Below are positions 1,271 to 18,883 of a stretch of DNA of 20,015 bases, piece after piece; the first letter of the stretch is position 1; each line of letters opens with the position of its first letter. Both the position numbers and the translations under genes were made by a program. The notes under the pieces are model-generated. The model was not told the origin of the DNA, did not search any database, and saw only the letters and a program-made list of their open reading frames with translations. Source of the DNA: Candidatus Auribacterota bacterium (GTDB lineage: Bacteria; Auribacterota; JAFGBW01); contig JAFGBW010000002.1 in assembly GCA_016932965.1 (NCBI GenBank), positions 1-20,015 on the forward strand, written 5' to 3'.

Positions 1271-2128
1271 TCATTCCTTCAGTTCATCCCAAATCTGGAT
1301 GAAGGCTTTTTTTACACTACCATCGCAGTACTCCATAACGGTTTTTCCTGAAATCATGGATTCAACAACACTCTGATCAAATCCAATTCTGCCGATAATC
1401 GGAATCCCTTTATCCCTGCATAAAACATCAATCTGATTGGTTATGCCAGGATTGAGATCATATTTATTTATGACCAGTTTCACCCGTATTCTGAAAAATT
1501 CCGTAAGGGCGATGACTCTTGCGGCGTCATGGATGCCTGAAACGGTCGGTTCTGTCACGATCAGTACGCAATCAGTTCCGGTAAGAGAAGCGATCACCGG
1601 GCATCCGATTCCCGGCGGACCGTCAATAATCACGTAATCTGATTTCAGGCATTCAGCCTTTTCTCTGGCGATTTGTCTTATTTTTGAAACCAGTTTGCCG
1701 GAATTTTCTTCGGCGATACCCAATTTTGCATGAATGAAGACGCCATATTTTGTTTCAGAAACGAACCATTCACCGCTTATATTCTCTTTCATGTGGATTG
1801 CAGACACAGGACACGCCCTGCTGCAAAGCGAGCATCCCTCGCAAAAAAGGGAGTCAACAGAATAGGAGGGAGTTTTGATTGCTTCAAACCTGCAGACGGA
1901 TACGCACCTGCCGCATTGATTGCACATTTCTTTATTGATCACCGCCGTTTTACCGCCTCTGAATTCATGCCGTTCTTTAATGAGAGGCTGGAGCAAAAGA
2001 TGCAGGTTAGCGGCATCGACATCGCAGTCAACCATCACTTTATTTTCAGCCAGGGCAGCCAGTGCGCCTGCAACGACTGTTTTTCCTGTGCCGCCCTTGC
2101 CGCTGATGATGACGATTTGTTTCTTCAT
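1271..2128 (-). CDS. MinD/Mrp-type P-loop ATPase with inserted 2x[4Fe-4S] ferredoxin domain (second copy)
   Basis: A 285-residue soluble ATPase of the MinD/Mrp/NifH-like (SIMIBI) class, COG1149 type. The deviant Walker A motif GKGGTGKT is at residues 10-17 and DCDVDAAN at 34-41. A ferredoxin module is inserted with two four-cysteine clusters, C69/C72/C75/C79 and C96/C99/C102/C106. The Walker B region reads YVIIDGPPGIGCPV. Relatives couple ATP hydrolysis to Fe-S cluster transfer or to low-potential electron transfer. The ATG at 2128 overlaps the FAD enzyme's stop as TGATG and has GGAAG 7 nt upstream; an in-frame TTG just before it (2131) is less likely. Its own stop overlaps the alternative DUF2099 start by 4 nt, so translation of the three genes is probably coupled. 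It is a diverged paralogue of the ATPase at 3476-4351. Confidence 0.9.
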   Translation of the reverse strand: MKKQIVIISGKGGTGKTVVAGALAALAENKVMVDCDVDAANLHLLLQPLIKERHEFRGGKTAVINKEMCNQCGRCVSVCRFEAIKTPSYSVDSLFCEGCSLCSRACPVSAIHMKENISGEWFVSETKYGVFIHAKLGIAEENSGKLVSKIRQIAREKAECLKSDYVIIDGPPGIGCPVIASLTGTDCVLIVTEPTVSGIHDAARVIALTEFFRIRVKLVINKYDLNPGITNQIDVLCRDKGIPIIGRIGFDQSVVESMISGKTVMEYCDGSVKKAFIQIWDELKE

Positions 2129-3492
2129 CAATGTGCTTCCGATGATCTCATTTTTGAGGACGCATCCTGTGAAGCCAATACGACCGGATACACGGTCGGC
2201 GCGCTGGTTAAAAACGGATGAGTCGCTATCTGCAGCGTTTCGAGTTCTATGATAGAAACCCGCTGTTGGATGGCCATACCTATCAAATTGATGATTTCGC
2301 CCGAGGAAATACCTCCTGCGACCTGGCCCCCCATGAGAATTCCCGATTGCCTTGAAAAAATCAGTTTAATTTTGATTTTTCCGGCTCCGGCCAGATTCGC
2401 AGGATGTTTGTCCACGCCTTCGGCATGACCTGTGACAATTTCAAAGCCTTCTTTTTTAGCCGTATTTTCCGTCAGGCCGGCTGATCCCAGGATCAATCCG
2501 TTCACATAAGTAGAATAAATGGCGATCGTTCCTTTGTTTTCTCTGACCAGTTTAAGCTGATAAAGATTGGCGCCGGCTATTCTTGCTTCAGCTGTCGCCG
2601 TGGAGGCAAGCATGACCGGTGTGTCCCGACGGGTATAAAAATCTTTTTTGCAGGCACAATCTCCTACTGCAAAAATATCGGAATCGGTGGTACGCATGTA
2701 TTCATCGACCCATATTCCTTTTCCTTTTTCCATTTCCAATCCGGCTTCAAGGGCAAGACGGGTGTTCGGCGACGCGCCTATTCCCAATATGACACTGTCG
2801 GCTTTGATTTCTTTTCCGTTATCAAAACGGACACTTTCAACTTTACCGCTACCCAGAAATTCCTTGACACGTTCACCGGTAAAAATATGGACCCCTTTTG
2901 ATCTGAGTTTTTCTTCTGCGATACTGGCGAATTCCTCATCAAAAGAATTGGCCAGAATAGTAGGAAAAATTTCCGCCAAATACACGTTGATCCCCTTGAG
3001 ATTGGATATTTCATCGGCGAATTCAACTCCGATAAATCCTCCGCCCAAAATCAGAACATCTTTTGTCTGTCGTATGTTTTTTATGCAATCCTTGAGATAA
3101 TCCATATCTTTGCAGACGGGATAAATCCCTTTTTTATCGATTCCCGGGATGGGCGGAATAACAGGTGACGATCCTACAGACAGAATCAGTTTTTCATAAA
3201 TAAACCTGGTTCCGGATACGGTTTCCACCATTTTAACGTTTCTGTTTATTCGTGTCGCCTCATCCAATGCCACATCGATCTGGTTTTTTTCCAGAAGAGC
3301 CGTTCCCATCTTATTGTCATCGGGATTGGTCAAGCTGGAAAACATATATGGAATGCCGCAGGGGATGACCCCATTGGAAATATTTTTCATCACCAGGATT
3401 TTTTTATCCGGATAATATTTCCGGGCCGTGACGGCGCTCACCATGCCTGCAGGACCAGCTCCGATAACGAGAATATCAACTTTTTTTTCCAT
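2128..3492 (-). CDS. FAD-dependent pyridine nucleotide-disulfide oxidoreductase, NADH oxidase/CoA-disulfide reductase-like
   Basis: A 454-residue flavoprotein of class III disulfide oxidoreductases. The N-terminal FAD-binding dinucleotide fold is GAGPAGM (residues 11-17), the NAD(P)H fold is LILGGGFIGVEFADE (around 146-160) and the second FAD motif is DIFAVGDCA (around 270). A single redox cysteine, Cys45 in PCGIPY, matches the active-site Cys of NADH oxidases and CoA-disulfide reductases; no CxxxxC pair is present. Such enzymes reduce O2, CoA disulfide or polysulfide with NAD(P)H through a cysteine sulfenate or persulfide. The length is normal and there is no C-terminal rhodanese domain. The start at 3492 has AAAGGA 7 nt upstream and overlaps the upstream ATPase by 17 nt. 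Lying between two ferredoxin-ATPases, it may pass electrons from NAD(P)H to them, or be a sulfur/thiol reductase for the same pathway (inference). The exact substrate cannot be read from sequence. Confidence 0.88.
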   Translation of the reverse strand: MEKKVDILVIGAGPAGMVSAVTARKYYPDKKILVMKNISNGVIPCGIPYMFSSLTNPDDNKMGTALLEKNQIDVALDEATRINRNVKMVETVSGTRFIYEKLILSVGSSPVIPPIPGIDKKGIYPVCKDMDYLKDCIKNIRQTKDVLILGGGFIGVEFADEISNLKGINVYLAEIFPTILANSFDEEFASIAEEKLRSKGVHIFTGERVKEFLGSGKVESVRFDNGKEIKADSVILGIGASPNTRLALEAGLEMEKGKGIWVDEYMRTTDSDIFAVGDCACKKDFYTRRDTPVMLASTATAEARIAGANLYQLKLVRENKGTIAIYSTYVNGLILGSAGLTENTAKKEGFEIVTGHAEGVDKHPANLAGAGKIKIKLIFSRQSGILMGGQVAGGISSGEIINLIGMAIQQRVSIIELETLQIATHPFLTSAPTVYPVVLASQDASSKMRSSEAH

Positions 3493-4351
3493 GGTTATTT
3501 CCTTTCATTAATTCTTTAATTTGAATGAACAATTGTCGGAAGCTGTTCTCATATTCAGGAAAAGCCTTAACAAGTGGGATCCCCTGCGAGCAGGCAGCAG
3601 CAATTTCTTTTTTAAAAGGGATGTGCATCAACACATGAATATTCTCCTTTATGCAATACATCTCGACCTCATCATTCCCCAAATCCGAACGGTTGATGAT
3701 TACTCCAAACTGCACATTCATCTTGCGCAGCAATTCAACCGTTAAAATAAGATCATTCAGCCCGAATGGAGTCGGCTCTGTAACCAGAATGCAGAAATCA
3801 GTGCCTTTAACCGCGGAAATCACCGGGCATGATGTCCCGGGAGGAGCGTCAATGATAACTGATTTTGTCATGCTGATATGCTTTTTAACCTGGCGGATGA
3901 CCGGAGGAGACATGGCTTCGCCTATGTTCAGCCGGCCGTGAATGAATTCCATGTCGTTTTTTTCCCCGATTTCAATCACTCCGATTTCCCGGTCCACTTC
4001 CTTGATGGCATTTGAGGGACACAGCAATGAGCATGCCCCACAGCCGTGACATAAATTCTGAAAGATCAAAACATGGCTGTTTTTAGTCTGGCTGGCTGGC
4101 AACACTGCAATGGCATTATATTCGCACACGTCTCGACATTTTCCGCAAAGTCTGCATTTTGTTTCGTCCACCACAGGCATAAGGAGGCAGGCTTTTTCTG
4201 TTCTGCTAATGCGGGGCTTTAAAAAAAGATGCGCATTGGGTTCCTCCACATCGCAGTCGAGAAACTGGACGTTATCAATTGAAAGAGCCAGGCTGACAGC
4301 CACTGTTGTTTTTCCTGTTCCGCCTTTTCCGCTGGCTATTGATATGATCAT
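3476..4351 (-). CDS. MinD/Mrp-type P-loop ATPase with inserted 2x[4Fe-4S] ferredoxin domain (first copy)
   Basis: A 291-residue paralogue of the ATPase at 1271-2128 with the same layout. Walker A is GKGGTGKTT at residues 8-16 and the switch region DCDVEEPNAH is at 32-41. The ferredoxin insert has C66/C69/C72/C76 (CRLCGKCRDVC) and C101/C104/C107/C111 (CHGCGACSLLC). The Walker B region reads VIIDAPPGTSCPV. Two such genes side by side are common in Desulfobacterota and archaea, and the pair may work as a heterodimer; this is inferred from pairing, not shown here. The start codon at 4351 overlaps the methyltransferase stop as ATGA, and an AAGGA lies 10 nt upstream. Its 3' end overlaps the FAD enzyme by 17 nt. 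The two copies differ clearly in sequence, so this is an old duplication. Confidence 0.9.
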   Translation of the reverse strand: MIISIASGKGGTGKTTVAVSLALSIDNVQFLDCDVEEPNAHLFLKPRISRTEKACLLMPVVDETKCRLCGKCRDVCEYNAIAVLPASQTKNSHVLIFQNLCHGCGACSLLCPSNAIKEVDREIGVIEIGEKNDMEFIHGRLNIGEAMSPPVIRQVKKHISMTKSVIIDAPPGTSCPVISAVKGTDFCILVTEPTPFGLNDLILTVELLRKMNVQFGVIINRSDLGNDEVEMYCIKENIHVLMHIPFKKEIAAACSQGIPLVKAFPEYENSFRQLFIQIKELMKGNNHGKKS

Positions 4352-5400: not shown

Positions 5401-5775
5401 TCAAACACTGCGGGACATGCCTGACTTTGAATTTACCGTTGACTGGCTGCTCGTTTTGTATTCACCCATTTTATACTTCTCAATGACATCCTTCACAATA
5501 CCTGATGCTCCGGTAACAACCTCTATTTCAGCGGCTTGTAATGTGTTAAAAGCATTCGGGCCGACATTTCCTGTAATAACTGCCTTCACCTGTTTTGAAG
5601 ACATAAACTGGCCGGACTGTACACCCACACCTCCCATTGAATCAATATTCGCATTCTGAACAGCCTCAAACTCCTTGGATTCAGTATCGATAATAATAAA
5701 ATACCTGCATCTGCCGAATCTAGGATCAACCATGGACTCCAGATTATCACCTTCTGATGTAACGCATATTTTCAT
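5401..5775 (-). CDS. NifX/NifB-type dinitrogenase iron-molybdenum cofactor-binding domain protein (copy 1)
   Basis: A 124-residue protein of the COG1433 family, which has the ribonuclease H-like fold used by NifX, NafY and the NifB C-terminus to bind iron-molybdenum cofactor precursors. The start MKICVTSEGDNLESMVDPRF-GRC is typical, with FGRCRYF around residues 20-26 and the glycine-rich VVTGASGIVKDVIEKY end. The Ser/Lys-rich tail has no cysteines. AGGAG lies 9 nt before the ATG at 5775 and the gene follows the second NifX-like gene by 13 bp. Stand-alone members like this are widespread in anaerobes without nitrogenase, so the gene does not show nitrogen fixation; no nifHDK is seen in the window. 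A role in carrying or shielding a metal-sulfur cluster is likely. Confidence 0.88.
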   Translation of the reverse strand: MKICVTSEGDNLESMVDPRFGRCRYFIIIDTESKEFEAVQNANIDSMGGVGVQSGQFMSSKQVKAVITGNVGPNAFNTLQAAEIEVVTGASGIVKDVIEKYKMGEYKTSSQSTVNSKSGMSRSV

Positions 5776-5788
5776 ATATTATAACTCC

Positions 5789-6187
5789 TTAATGAGCATG
5801 TTGTTCAGTGTGAGAATGATCACATACTTTTTTATCAAGTCCATAGCCTTTTCCCGCACCTGGCTTACAGAAACTTTCCCCTCCTTTTAATGTTTGATTC
5901 TTAAACTGTTCAATTACATCGTCGATTTTCCCGCTTACTCCCACAATTGTTTCAATTCCGTATTGGGCAAAAAAAGATGTCGCTCTCATCCCCATCCCAC
6001 CTGAAATAATGCAGATCACACCCTTTTTGTGTAAAAATTCAGGTATTGCGCCAGGCTCATGACCAGGGTTTGCCACTTCCATTCTCTGGATTTCCCTGCC
6101 GTTTTCTACATCAACCAATGTAAAAACCGGACATCTGCCGAAATGGGCAGATACATTATTTCCGTCTGTAGATATAGCTATTCGCAT
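5789..6187 (-). CDS. NifX/NifB-type cofactor-binding domain protein with His/Cys-rich tail (copy 2)
   Basis: A 132-residue COG1433 protein. It has ISTDGNNVSAHFGRCPVF near the N-terminus, the GGMGMRATSFF loop in the middle and IVGVSGKIDDVI before the tail, all as expected for the NifX-like fold. The last 25 residues add two cysteines and several histidines (VCDHSHTEQHAH), a likely metal-binding tail that copy 1 lacks. AAGGG lies 7 nt before the ATG at 6187. It is the first gene after a 233-bp spacer, so it may start its own transcript or continue from the DUF5320 gene upstream. It probably carries a metal-sulfur cofactor for the same pathway; the partner is unknown. Confidence 0.88.
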   Translation of the reverse strand: MRIAISTDGNNVSAHFGRCPVFTLVDVENGREIQRMEVANPGHEPGAIPEFLHKKGVICIISGGMGMRATSFFAQYGIETIVGVSGKIDDVIEQFKNQTLKGGESFCKPGAGKGYGLDKKVCDHSHTEQHAH

Positions 6188-11420: not shown

Positions 11421-14036
11421 CTATAGGGTTCTTTTTTTGGTGTAAAACCATTGGACCATCCGGGACCCCATTTCCTCGTCGACGTTTTCCATTTCCATGA
11501 CGGATCTGCCTTTTAAGGAGGGAAGGACTTCTTTCAGCTTCCACTGATTGTTGTGTCTTCCGAATGTCCAGTATTCCTCATACGGTGTGACATATTCATC
11601 CCGGATCAGGATTTGACCATTATGTTTTACAATTTTCTGTGCATGAAAGCTGATCCGGGTGAAATACTCATCCTGTGTATTGTCAGAATAATTCCTGATT
11701 AAAATGAGCTCAACCTTGCGGACGCAGAAGTTGCGGAATTCAACGGTCCGTTTCATTTCTTTTCCCTTTTTGATTTCCTCCCTTAGGCTTTCAGCCAAAT
11801 CCGGGAAAAGCTGAAGCGCAATCTCATCTGAGAGGTTTCCAGCTTCCCTAGCCATATAAACATTGATAAATATGTTTCTTGCCCTGGCCAGCATGAAGTC
11901 CCTGCCCCACAGTTTGTCGGTTTCATAGAGGAAATTCAGCATCCTTTCGATCTTGACCGCCTTGGTTTCTGTCTTTTTATCAAGCCATGGGCCGGTCTCG
12001 CCTGTTTTGTCAACCGCCTCTCCGTAAATCTCCTTTACCTGGTGGTCAGTGAATTGTTCAAAAAAGTTTTCATCTTTCAGGACATCGCTCTCCCTGGTCT
12101 GCTCGATATCGCGGAGCAGCCACTGATTTTCTTGGAAATGAAAGGTCCAGAATTCCTGAAAACGGGCGGGAGTTGTGTCCCCGCGTAAAAAACGCTCACT
12201 CCGGTCATCGATATAATAGTCCCTCATTTCCGCGGTAAACAGCACGGTGAATTCGCGCTGATTAGGTTTGTTCGTATAACGCACGTTGACGAAATCGATT
12301 TTGATAATTTTGATATTCTCCATCCTGTTGATTTCATGGTTTCGGAGCATCCCGCTGATTTGTTTCAAGTGCTGGCTGTATAAATCAGGCATCATTAATG
12401 ATTTCATAGGCTCGTAATTTCTCGCCTGCCAGCAATTTTGAAGTTTTAAAAAGGTGCTTCTGGCCATTTCCTCAAGAAGCGGGACGGAAAAGGCCTGATC
12501 CTGCCTGGAAATGAATTCAATGAGTTTTTGCGTTTTGCCGGCCTTTTTTTCAATTTGGCTGCGGGAATAGCAGAAATCAAGGTTTTCATCCTGGTTGTTC
12601 TCACGTGATTTCAATATTTTGACCACGATGATGATGCCGAACCAGATGAAGATGATCAGGGGGCTGAACTCTCCGCCCGAACCCCCGCGCGACCTTGCCC
12701 CCGATCTTCCGCTGCGATGATAGGAAGACGAGCTGTGAAATCCGCCGCCCTTATTATGAACCAGGAAGCCATTGGCTATAAACGTATTCGGCGCGTCAAC
12801 CGAAAGGTTGAAGACGGTTGTATTTTCCGTTTGAACATGAACTTGCTGTACTGGACAGGAAATGAATTCCCCGTTTATCCTCATCAGGACCCTGTCCTTG
12901 TTTGTCAATCTGCCTGCATTGCAGAAGAGGCTGTCCGATACGGCAACAGGATGATCCGGTGTGGCTTGGAGAAAACCGTTCTCTGTTTTGATGACAACCA
13001 GGGGATTTCTGAAGGCATAGATATCACGCACACCGGTTGAAACCGGTTTGCCGTTTTGTCCTTTTGTCAAAATAAAATCACCGGGTGCCAGGGTTTCAAT
13101 GTTCCGTTTTCCAGCCGGGGTTTCAATTTTCGTTCCGCTGGGCAGGCAGCCTCCGCCCTTGTTATGCACAGCGATGCCGGCCGCGAAAAAGGTGTGGGGG
13201 CCGTCTGTCTGAATGTTATAAACCATAACCGGATCCCTGACCCGTTTGATCCCCACAATTTTTTGACCGGACAAACCGCGGCCGTCAAAGCAGAAAAGAA
13301 TGTCCCCGGTTTTAAGAACTTCAAGCGTCTTAAACGTCCCTTCGCCCACATAAAACGGATGCTCTTTTGTGACATTTAAAACCACTTTGTCCGTGGTCAC
13401 CACAATGTATTCCTCAACCCGGTGTTGAATGACATTCATGACTTTTGCGGAAACGAGCGTACCGTCACTCAAAAAAGCCTTCAGTTTATCTCCTGTCTTG
13501 ATGTTGCTGATGGAAACAGCAGTCCCGTCATCACGAAGAATCCGGGTGTCCGGCAGGAAGCACCCTTTGTTATGAACCAGTAAATCGCCGGCAATAAAGG
13601 TTCCTTTCTCCACGATAAGGTTATAGGCCGGAGTTGAACCCATGAGAGGTTTGATTGAAATGACCGGAACAGCCGCTGATTTGTTTCCGTTCCAGCTCAA
13701 AACGGTTTCCCCTTTATTTAATTTCCCTGCAAACCTGTACGTTCCTTCTGCAATCTTAAACGGGTGTTCACTGGTCACGTGAACGATTCCGGAGCCAAAC
13801 GCAAATTCGATATATTCTGCCGGATCGATCTGTGTACAGGAGAGTATTTTTACAGGCTGAAGTCCGGTATCCGCCAAGGTTTGGACCGTATCTCCCTCAT
13901 GAAGGGATTCAATCGGAACATATCCTTTTGGCGTGAGAACAGGGGTGCCTTTCTCAAAGCATCCGCCTCCGCCGCGGCCTAATGCTGTAAAAGCATCAGC
14001 TAGAAAGAACAGGATCACCAGTATTTTTTTCATCAA
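11421..14036 (-). CDS. Membrane protein with three tandem Hint (hedgehog/intein) domains and two Tim44-like domains
   Basis: An 871-residue protein. Residues 1-20 form a signal peptide and GRGGGG leads straight into Hint domain 1 (C26 to H155-N156). KG then joins Hint 2 (C159 to H291-N292) and KGGG joins Hint 3 (C297 to H427-N428). Each domain keeps the N-terminal Cys, the block-B histidine (H91, H226, H362, in EHPF/EHPF/DHPV) and the terminal His-Asn. Each is followed by Lys, so canonical splicing is not expected but self-cleavage could occur. A Gly/Ser/Arg-rich segment (430-456) follows, then one transmembrane helix (about 458-473). Two Tim44-like domains (about 512-646 and 700-850) each end in E-(F/Y)-WTF...W-L/K. 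Predicted topology: Hint domains outside, Tim44-like domains in the cytoplasm. ATG 14036 overlaps the DUF350 stop by 4 nt. Function is unknown; the Hint array may be a self-removing insert in the Gly-rich linker. Confidence 0.9.
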   Translation of the reverse strand: MMKKILVILFFLADAFTALGRGGGGCFEKGTPVLTPKGYVPIESLHEGDTVQTLADTGLQPVKILSCTQIDPAEYIEFAFGSGIVHVTSEHPFKIAEGTYRFAGKLNKGETVLSWNGNKSAAVPVISIKPLMGSTPAYNLIVEKGTFIAGDLLVHNKGCFLPDTRILRDDGTAVSISNIKTGDKLKAFLSDGTLVSAKVMNVIQHRVEEYIVVTTDKVVLNVTKEHPFYVGEGTFKTLEVLKTGDILFCFDGRGLSGQKIVGIKRVRDPVMVYNIQTDGPHTFFAAGIAVHNKGGGCLPSGTKIETPAGKRNIETLAPGDFILTKGQNGKPVSTGVRDIYAFRNPLVVIKTENGFLQATPDHPVAVSDSLFCNAGRLTNKDRVLMRINGEFISCPVQQVHVQTENTTVFNLSVDAPNTFIANGFLVHNKGGGFHSSSSYHRSGRSGARSRGGSGGEFSPLIIFIWFGIIIVVKILKSRENNQDENLDFCYSRSQIEKKAGKTQKLIEFISRQDQAFSVPLLEEMARSTFLKLQNCWQARNYEPMKSLMMPDLYSQHLKQISGMLRNHEINRMENIKIIKIDFVNVRYTNKPNQREFTVLFTAEMRDYYIDDRSERFLRGDTTPARFQEFWTFHFQENQWLLRDIEQTRESDVLKDENFFEQFTDHQVKEIYGEAVDKTGETGPWLDKKTETKAVKIERMLNFLYETDKLWGRDFMLARARNIFINVYMAREAGNLSDEIALQLFPDLAESLREEIKKGKEMKRTVEFRNFCVRKVELILIRNYSDNTQDEYFTRISFHAQKIVKHNGQILIRDEYVTPYEEYWTFGRHNNQWKLKEVLPSLKGRSVMEMENVDEEMGSRMVQWFYTKKRTL

Positions 14037-14326
14037 GATACCAGAAAGAGCCCACAGAAGATGGAAACGGCCACGATGATACTGACCCCGATGGTCACGG
14101 CCGAGACCACCCGGCCGAAATATTCGGCAACAGCCACGTTGCCGCGGGCAATTTCTTTCTCCTCATCAAGATTCGGAGTCAGCTTGTTTATGATTTTCGG
14201 GAGATAGGAGGCGGATAGAAACACAAAGCACACTCCCAGAAAAGACCCGATAAACGCATAAAGCGCCGCCCAGCCTATCCGGCTGACATGATCAATGACC
14301 TGTTTTATTGCGGTTGATTCTTCCAT
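14033..14326 (-). CDS. DUF350 family small membrane protein
   Basis: A 97-residue inner-membrane protein with two hydrophobic helices, at about residues 17-40 (IGWAALYAFIGSFLGVCFVF) and 74-95 (VSAVTIGVSIIVAVSIFCGL). Between them EKEIARGNVAVAEYFGRVV matches the conserved E-I-x-x-GN-x-AVA loop of DUF350. The normal DUF350 unit has this length. The function of the family is not established. AAGGGGA lies 5 nt before the ATG at 14326, and a good sigma-70 promoter lies 37-64 bp upstream. Its last codon overlaps the start of the Hint/Tim44 gene (ATGA), so the two membrane proteins are made together and probably act together. Confidence 0.75.
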   Translation of the reverse strand: MEESTAIKQVIDHVSRIGWAALYAFIGSFLGVCFVFLSASYLPKIINKLTPNLDEEKEIARGNVAVAEYFGRVVSAVTIGVSIIVAVSIFCGLFLVS

Positions 14327-16801: not shown

Positions 16802-18841
16802 TCAGGCGTCATCATCTGTCATTCCTCGGTGAAACCCGATGGCTTCCCTGTATCTTCCTCTTTGAACGGAATAAAAGGAATCTATTTTTTCCTTCAGAAT
16901 CTGATCCGGTGTTTTTTCACCGGTCCAGCGCTTCAAGACCTCTGCCATTGTTTTATTATAATCCAATACATCGCCCAGGGCATCTTGAAAAACCATGCCC
17001 TTTTTTGCAATCAGATGAAACCACGGTACGCTGGAAGCAAAAACATCAATCATTTCATTTTCGAGCTGTGTTTTTAAATCAGGCCCCAATGCCATGTATT
17101 TCCCCGAGTCACTGGTTTGCGCAGCAATATATTCTCTGGCAAGTCCGGGTATTTCAGTCATTGCCAGAAGATCCCTGATGGCATCTTCTGTTTCAGGCCG
17201 GTCACCCTGTTCGGGTGACAGCATTTTCTGGATGACTGAATACAACTGGTCCGCATTTTTCACAACCCATTTGAATCGAACACCGCGTGTTGCTTTGGCC
17301 ATCTTTTCAATACAACCCGCATGCAGCCGGGTCACTCTTTCAGAATGTCCCATCACAAATTCCATTACATGAGCATAGCTGAAATCCCCGAAAACATCCT
17401 CCCCTGTCAAAAATTCATAAATAATGAGCCCCAGGGAGAACACATCAACCTTGGTGGAAAAATTTTTGAGATAGACGGCGCGTGGATGTTCAGAGAGGCC
17501 CGGCATATAACATTCAGTAGGAGCATGGGAAGGGGAAAAGATGTATGAATCAATCTTCCCGATAAATCTCAGGACATCACTTGAAACCCCATGGTCAATC
17601 AGCGAGACCTTGCCGTTGTTGTTCATGAGAATGTTTCCAGGTTTCAGGTCCCTGTGCACGATCCCTCTTGCGTGGGCCGGTCTTAATCTGATCAGACATT
17701 CAAGCAGTAAATAGGAAAGATGATAGGGATTGGGCACCGTATCCGTATAGACTTGTTTCACCACGTCATCCAGAGGCATGCCTAAAAAAAGGGTGATGCA
17801 GATATTTCTGAACCGGGGTTCGAGCGATCTGTCTTCAGGCAGCCTGACAATATGAATATGCGGATCCAGTTTCAGGGCTGTTAAATTTTCCAGGGCGGTG
17901 GTATCTTGCTGTATGAAGGGTTTAGCAACATGGACCACAAAAAAATCAGTCTGCTGAAATTTCCGCGGAAGGTGCTGCCTGTCAAGGCTGCTTTTCTTTT
18001 TGAAAACCAATATGTCTTTCTGGCCTCCGGTCTGGATCATTCTCACATAACTAAAGGGGGTGGGTTGAAGAACCCCCTGAATCAAATTATGCCTGATCGT
18101 ATCGTTCAATTGGGGTATGGGATTTTCCAATATCCTCATGATATCTCTGATGATCGATCCTGAAATGGCCAGGCGGCCTTCAATCGGAGACGGAGGCAGA
18201 CTTACTCTCTGGGTTCCATCAACCGGGAGGATGAGCGTTTCCCCTTCATCAGCTGAAGAAAAGTCGGTGCCGAAATCTTCAACCGTGATGGTCTGAGGGG
18301 GATAATGAAAGGTGAATTCATGGGTGTCGGGGTTGTAGGAATAGCTGTATTGCCCCAGGATTTCCCGCATTTGACGGCCCTGAGCGGTTTTTTCAATGAA
18401 CCGGATAAAACCGGAAATGACCGGAACAACTATGTCTCCGACGTCCTGTATCCCTCTTTCCTCCAAGGCCGGCCAGCCCAGTTCTTTCTGATATTCAGGG
18501 TACAGGGCGACGATCATCTGATACACATATTCAAGATCAACCGTAAAACTCGTTTGAGATAAAAAATCGTCCAGACCAACGATCCCGGCAGGGATCAGCA
18601 TGCCTTCAGAGACATTCGTTCCCGGCCTTGGAATTCCCTTTTCGGTGATGAGGGAATCAATCCACAGGTATTTCGGGTTCCAGGGATCAAAATGTTTCAT
18701 CTCGGAACAATTCTGTGTGACGGTTTTTTTCTGATAACTCATCGGAGCCAATGCCGGCAAATCCATTGAGAAAAAATACAGAACAACCAGCATGGACAGA
18801 AATAGCTGTATGGGTCCGTTGATGAGTCCGTGTTTCAGCAT
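16802..18841 (-). CDS. Ser/Thr protein kinase-like protein with N-terminal signal peptide or membrane anchor
   Basis: A protein of about 679 residues. In the 687-residue numbering from the alternative ATG at 18865, a hydrophobic segment spans residues 19-40 (IQLFLSMLVVLYFF, ending PALA-P). Residues 41-270 are an unrecognised region. The kinase domain spans about 272-570: the putative ATP-lysine K315 (HVAK), alpha-C Glu about 327, catalytic loop HRDLKPGN (404-411), D424-H-G in place of DFG, APTE (448-451) as the APE motif, KVDVFSLGLIIYEFLTG, and DRPETEDAI near the end. The glycine-rich loop is poorly kept. A helical tail of about 110 residues follows. Key catalytic residues are present, so activity is plausible. 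ATG 18841 has AAGGA 9 nt upstream and is preferred to 18865. It follows the unknown gene by 42 bp and is probably cotranscribed with it. Confidence 0.82.
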   Translation of the reverse strand: MLKHGLINGPIQLFLSMLVVLYFFSMDLPALAPMSYQKKTVTQNCSEMKHFDPWNPKYLWIDSLITEKGIPRPGTNVSEGMLIPAGIVGLDDFLSQTSFTVDLEYVYQMIVALYPEYQKELGWPALEERGIQDVGDIVVPVISGFIRFIEKTAQGRQMREILGQYSYSYNPDTHEFTFHYPPQTITVEDFGTDFSSADEGETLILPVDGTQRVSLPPSPIEGRLAISGSIIRDIMRILENPIPQLNDTIRHNLIQGVLQPTPFSYVRMIQTGGQKDILVFKKKSSLDRQHLPRKFQQTDFFVVHVAKPFIQQDTTALENLTALKLDPHIHIVRLPEDRSLEPRFRNICITLFLGMPLDDVVKQVYTDTVPNPYHLSYLLLECLIRLRPAHARGIVHRDLKPGNILMNNNGKVSLIDHGVSSDVLRFIGKIDSYIFSPSHAPTECYMPGLSEHPRAVYLKNFSTKVDVFSLGLIIYEFLTGEDVFGDFSYAHVMEFVMGHSERVTRLHAGCIEKMAKATRGVRFKWVVKNADQLYSVIQKMLSPEQGDRPETEDAIRDLLAMTEIPGLAREYIAAQTSDSGKYMALGPDLKTQLENEMIDVFASSVPWFHLIAKKGMVFQDALGDVLDYNKTMAEVLKRWTGEKTPDQILKEKIDSFYSVQRGRYREAIGFHRGMTDDDA

Positions 18842-18883
18842 GTGGGATAATCCTTTTTTTTCCATTGTATAGGCTCTGCAGAA

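Follow-up and report, generated by a model that had tools for sequence, protein, structure and literature searches.

The window analysed here, a stretch of 20,015 nucleotides from Candidatus Auribacterota bacterium (assembly GCA_016932965.1, contig JAFGBW010000002.1), encodes a protein of 870 aa in which three Hint domains, resembling A-type bacterial intein-like (BIL) domains, precede a transmembrane helix and two Tim44-like domains. Judging from the residues that these domains carry, we favor, with moderate confidence, the view that they are A-type BIL domains that autoprocess, cutting or splicing themselves from the N terminus of an inner-membrane Tim44-like protein.

The Tim44-Hint gene lies on the minus strand (14033..11421), and its likely start is the ATG at 14033, which shares one base with the TGA stop of the upstream 97-aa gene and is directly preceded by a TTG at 14036. 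The original prediction had taken the TTG as the start; with the ATG, every residue number becomes one lower, and the Hint domains extend from C25 to N155, from C158 to N291, and from C296 to N427. The arrangement of the structural elements, all on the minus strand, is as follows.

14033..14326, minus strand: upstream 97-aa membrane protein, DUF350-like (PF03994, 1.8e-5; 25.2 bits, just under the cut-off of 26)
13977..14033, minus strand: probable signal peptide, residues 1 to 19 (MKKILVILFFLADAFTALG); hydrophobic N terminus with an A-L-G end just ahead of RGGGG
13962..13976, minus strand: RGGGG, residues 20 to 24; all that would remain N-terminal to Hint 1 after removal of the signal peptide
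13569..13961, minus strand: Hint 1 (type H1), C25 to N155; Pfam and NCBIfam profiles, H1 clade (97/98)
13563..13568, minus strand: KG joint between Hint 1 and Hint 2, residues 156 and 157; HN-KG-C at all H1-H2 joints seen
13161..13562, minus strand: Hint 2 (type H2), C158 to N291; best PT-HINT stretch (172 to 292), nearest PDB sequence 2LWY, H2 clade (100/99)
13149..13160, minus strand: KGGG joint, residues 292 to 295, seen in the sequence
12753..13148, minus strand: Hint 3 (type H3), C296 to N427; profiles and fold, H3 clade (95/86)
12663..12752, minus strand: Gly/Ser-rich linker starting with KGGGFHSSSS, residues 428 to 457; seen in the sequence, pLDDT below 50
12597..12662, minus strand: transmembrane helix, residues 458 to 479; hydrophobic helix in the model, its place conserved across the family
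12102..12521, minus strand: Tim44-like domain 1, residues 505 to 644; PF04280 1.7e-23, 1.8e-16 in the genome search
11502..11963, minus strand: Tim44-like domain 2, residues about 691 to 844; phmmer match to domain 1 at 4.8e-10, with helices and strands of the model in the same order

The hydrophobic leader is a probable signal peptide: among the 24 family members with such an end, the residue ahead of the arginine is always alanine (16) or glycine (8), which fits the preference of signal peptidase I, and the RGGGGC motif is identical in all 24, whichever Hint type comes first. At the other side of the array, the Gly/Ser-rich linker falls at the same alignment position as the corresponding linkers of the relatives. 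The Tim44 profile PF04280 scored 83.8 bits against a cut-off of 29.6, and the TimA-type adaptor model NF033779 scored 42.1 bits, below its curated cut-off of 80.

The original prediction had described three complete Hint domains, each running from a cysteine to a terminal His-Asn and joined by KG or KGGG, and had suggested profile searches and structure prediction as a check. The joints and the three domains, which share about 30% mutual identity, are present in the sequence as described, and profile, PDB-sequence and fold searches all point to Hint. In particular, Pfam detected three PT-HINT stretches (4e-23; the best at 172 to 292) together with Hint_2, Hint and Intein_splicing, and NCBIfam detected intein_Nterm three times and intein_Cterm twice. 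In the AlphaFold2 model (mean pLDDT 75.9, pTM 0.44), for which the fold search covered mainly H2 and H3, both domains aligned with BIL or intein structures at Z about 20 across 130 residues or more. H2 did so with Tetrahymena BIL2, the top match (Z 21.8, 1.8 A over 138 residues), as well as with a BIL from Clostridium (Z 20.3, 1.5 A over 132 residues); H3 did so with the inteins of DnaB and RecA (Z about 20.6). BIL domains are the nearest solved structures. The features of the Hint superfamily (Cys1, the block-B TxxH motif and the horseshoe Hint fold) are present, and the Hog domain of Hedgehog proteins was ruled against, as the Hints end in His-Asn and are followed by the transmembrane helix and Tim44 domains, not by a sterol-recognition region.

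Twenty-five relatives were found in Verrucomicrobiota, in Desulfobacterota and other "delta" bins, and in Sumerlaeota, giving a total of 26 proteins and 60 Hints. The recurrence of the same array in these relatives excludes chance or a frameshift artefact as its origin. The scan of a GTDB-type collection was run with Tim44 motifs, not with Hint motifs (a three-row alignment gave a usable pattern, and six rows of distant Tim44 proteins gave none), and the best 80 loci were kept. Sixteen of these are relatives over the entire protein, and all 16 carry Hints; the remaining 64 are distant Tim44 proteins of about 25 to 34% identity. No Hint-free protein with a closely related tail occurs among the 80 best loci. 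Among sampled genomes, six further members were added in Verrucomicrobiota (7/337 including the seed) and three in the phylum of locus L067 (6/297 including the seeds), and none was found in Sumerlaeota besides the seed (1/40).

The host genome contains no second Hint detectable by the PT-HINT profile and no second Tim44, and no other Tim44 was found in 44 genomes of the same phylum. The Tim44-Hint protein is also the sole Hint protein detected in 12 of the 14 other host genomes searched. Phages and viral contigs yielded nothing related to the full protein, and the Hints detected on plasmids were all of the toxin or calcium-binding type; hence no mobile carrier was found. The tetranucleotide make-up of the contig matches that of its genome (r 0.967), which argues against contamination of the host bin and indicates that the gene probably does belong to this genome, where it may have arrived by horizontal transfer.

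Three Hints of other proteins were also noticed. A short lipoprotein-like open reading frame (L175, in the genome of L082) carries a Hint whose C terminus reads LVHNCGGGGK, with almost nothing after His-Asn; at L229, a secreted protein ends with a Hint in LVHNK, so that the lysine in position +1 is its last residue; and L040 has a type IV pilin-like start and a Hint (CFEKGT..., with an end other than HN) after a run of eight glycines, a further Gly-rich Hint site.

A DUF350-like gene lies directly upstream in the window and in 13 of the 14 family loci with upstream DNA, and was found upstream of a Hint-free Tim44 gene in none of the loci scanned; furthermore, the order LemA, DUF350-like, Tim44-Hint, all in the same direction, occurs in four Desulfobacterota-type loci (L067, L077, L079 and L082). 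This context suggests that the DUF350-like protein (with LemA) and the Tim44-Hint protein form a functional unit. It also bears on the idea that the array is a polymorphic-toxin PT-HINT module releasing a toxic tip, which would agree with PT-HINT being the best-scoring Hint model in Pfam: the neighbors are DUF350 and LemA, the Hints are followed by a transmembrane helix and two Tim44 domains, and no toxin model matched, so that we give this idea next to no credence.

Elsewhere in the window, inspection by eye pointed to two MinD/Mrp-type ATPases with ferredoxin-like Cys clusters around an FAD/NAD oxidoreductase (1271-4351, minus strand), close to two small proteins (5401-6187) that look like dinitrogenase iron-molybdenum cofactor proteins. 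A 687-aa protein (16802-18865, minus strand) contains a Ser/Thr kinase domain (PF00069, 2.5e-20), and its long N-terminal part has no Pfam match at E 0.01.

The Hints had been predicted to occupy the place of the Gly-rich linker of Tim44-like proteins, and this agrees with the distant Tim44 proteins, which have only ARAGGG... at that position: elsewhere, these proteins consist of a leader, ARAGGG, a Gly/Ser stretch, a transmembrane helix and Tim44, with no Hint. Homologues with zero to three copies at this one position, which had been anticipated, were all found, and four copies also occur. One Hint is present in L081 and L177; two in L069, L071 to L077, L080, L082, L178, L179 and L181 (and at least two in L070); three in the window and in L067, L068, L180, L182, L219 and L220; and four in L079 and L221, L078 being a truncated protein. 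A tree of 36 Hints resolved three clades, namely H1 (13 rows, 97/98), H2 (16 rows, 100/99) and H3 (7 rows, 95/86), and profile typing assigned an H2 to each of the 22 members typed. The order is invariably H1, H2, H3, to which L079 adds a second, terminal H3, and this widespread order is probably ancestral. Since the Hint arrangements are mixed inside the clades of the tail tree, modules have been lost repeatedly and cleanly, and gains and losses always leave RGGGG|C and HN|KG intact. The same ends are kept in L068, L180 and L181, where Hint 1 is short (113 to 123 aa), and in L182, where it has about 35 extra residues; some of these copies may be impaired, a point against the self-processing favored here.

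The claim that the diverged copies form an array that is old and kept held up as well, given three orthologous Hint clades across phyla and dN/dS values well below 1. These were about 0.05 to 0.24 in the Hints and 0.09 to 0.13 in the tail, with several dS values near saturation; the Hints are thus under purifying selection. With Hint boundaries set by profile and not by motif, Cys1 and the glycine preceding it were conserved in 59 of 59 Hints each across the 26 proteins, and the His-Asn end followed by Lys-Gly (HNKG), which provides the A-type BIL motif of a terminal His-Asn with lysine and not Cys, Ser or Thr in position +1, in 60 of 60. The block-B Thr and His were found in 49 of 49 Hints of a 49-Hint alignment, in which few other columns exceed 90%, and block-F position 4 is Asn in 46 of 49, not the Asp of inteins; the Clostridium BIL 2LWY likewise has Asn there. 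By comparison, position +1 varies freely in Hints outside the family in the same phyla, several of which lack the HN end, and only about 4 of 18 unrelated HN-ended Hints inspected have Lys in position +1.

Two other readings are to be weighed against these counts. The first, that the Hints have lost their reactivity and act in the periplasm as folded spacers or in binding, is compatible with the C-terminal function being independent of them, as Hint-free Tim44 proteins occur. We consider it unlikely, as what stays invariant is exactly the set of reaction residues and the two scissile flanks, against variation at nearly every other position. The second is that the domains are ordinary inteins, i.e., recently inserted mobile parasites with class 1 splicing. 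Although they share the intein fold and the Cys1 and HN motifs, they lack a +1 Cys, Ser or Thr, the Asp at F4 and an endonuclease, and they occur as three orthologous copies across phyla at a low-complexity site, which leaves this second reading only a very slight chance; a class 1 intein is specifically ruled against by the invariant Lys in position +1 and the Asn at F4.

Type A BILs have a His-Asn end and no +1 nucleophile, form a thioester at Cys1 and undergo C-terminal cleavage by Asn cyclization; they mostly cleave, and attack of the freed amine on the thioester can lead to ligation (PMC4031507; PMC7664689). All residues required for these steps are present and invariant in the Hints of the family, from which we infer that autoprocessing of some kind is quite likely. 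Under the self-processing that we favor, the protein would first be exported, placing the Hints outside the cytoplasm; a thioester would form between Cys1 of each Hint and the preceding Gly (G|C), the terminal Asn would cyclize at HN|KG, freeing the other end, and the Hints would exit the protein. The upstream Gly peptide would then be lost by hydrolysis or joined to the next segment through attack of the freed amine of Lys in position +1 on the thioester. If rejoining were complete, the window protein would carry RGGGG-KG-KGGG-KGGGFHSSSS ahead of the transmembrane helix and the two Tim44 domains, an unbroken Gly-rich linker resembling that of Hint-free Tim44 proteins. A maturation step or a timed release would be the most likely purpose.

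We attribute about equal likelihood to a cleavage-dominant and to a splicing-dominant outcome. A point against self-processing is that cleavage of Hint 1 alone would change little, its N-flank being only RGGGG if the leader is cut before the Arg. The conservation of Cys1 and of the preceding Gly at Hint 1 would therefore be easier to understand if the peptide were carried forward, by splicing or by transfer to an amine, than if it were plainly lost. Overall, the data suggest that self-processing is an inherent part of producing this rare but old Tim44-Hint protein and not the mark of a passing parasite.

It is possible to hypothesize, tentatively, that the amine of the invariant Lys+1 acts as the built-in nucleophile of each Hint, and that the exported array would thereby link Gly peptides through amide or isopeptide bonds with no need for ATP; this, if true, would be a bacterial, conserved, multi-module protein-ligation device on a membrane. 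In a related and likewise doubtful alternative, the Lys+1 side chain, or a Lys of another protein, would take the Gly acyl group from the thioester to form an isopeptide bond, i.e., a branched N terminus or a cross-link. The occurrence of Lys+1 in all 60 Hints, compared with its rarity in unrelated HN-ended Hints, points in this direction, as does Tetrahymena BIL2, the top fold match, which is reported to form a Lys isopeptide bond (PMC8616854). However, the Lys used in BIL2 comes from a flanking domain and is not in position +1, the +1 alpha-amine released by Asn cyclization would suffice without the side chain, and Lys+1 could instead matter for solubility or for how fast the C terminus is cleaved.

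Compared with known systems, the Hints are closest to A-type BIL domains in every sequence and fold feature tested, in a setting unlike that of BIL descriptions. The A-type BIL of Clostridium thermocellum (2LWY) is alike in fold (Z 20.3), in sequence (profile E 2.6e-23), in the terminal His-Asn, in having Asn in place of the block-F Asp and, as in A-type BILs, in a +1 residue other than Cys, Ser or Thr. BILs have been described from variable regions of non-conserved proteins (reviews PMC7765530 and PMC5874633), whereas here one to four orthologous copies, always followed by Lys-Gly, occupy one fixed site, a low-complexity linker, in a host protein conserved across phyla. As we regard the described setting as a habit of the class and not a mechanistic criterion, we assign the domains to the A-type BILs on the basis of their motifs and modeled fold, while noting that their setting is atypical. 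BILs are known as sporadic features of unclear purpose; here they have long been kept in a fixed position with the reaction residues and both predicted cut sites invariant, and one defined protein family makes the question of what BIL processing is for testable, while the invariant +1 Lys is a natural starting point for protein ligation driven by an amine. An open-licence library returned no paper that connects Tim44 with Hint, which counts as weak evidence. Tetrahymena BIL2 from the BUBL1 polyubiquitin locus (6Y75, 6TMM) is alike as the best fold match (Z 21.8) and in its reported Lys amine chemistry, but it is eukaryotic, with ubiquitin-like flanking domains and neither Tim44 nor a +1 Lys array. 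Polymorphic-toxin PT-HINT modules share the same Pfam domain but directly precede a C-terminal toxin, and their +1 residue and ends vary. Bacterial Tim44-like proteins (PF04280; TimA-type NF033779) share the signal peptide, the ARAGGG start, the Gly-rich stretch, the transmembrane helix and the Tim44 domain; they differ in lacking Hints, in a tail identity of about 25 to 34%, and in that many have other tails or zinc ribbons; no zinc ribbon was seen in the Tim44-Hint subfamily, where the Hint array stands in the place of the Gly-rich linker.
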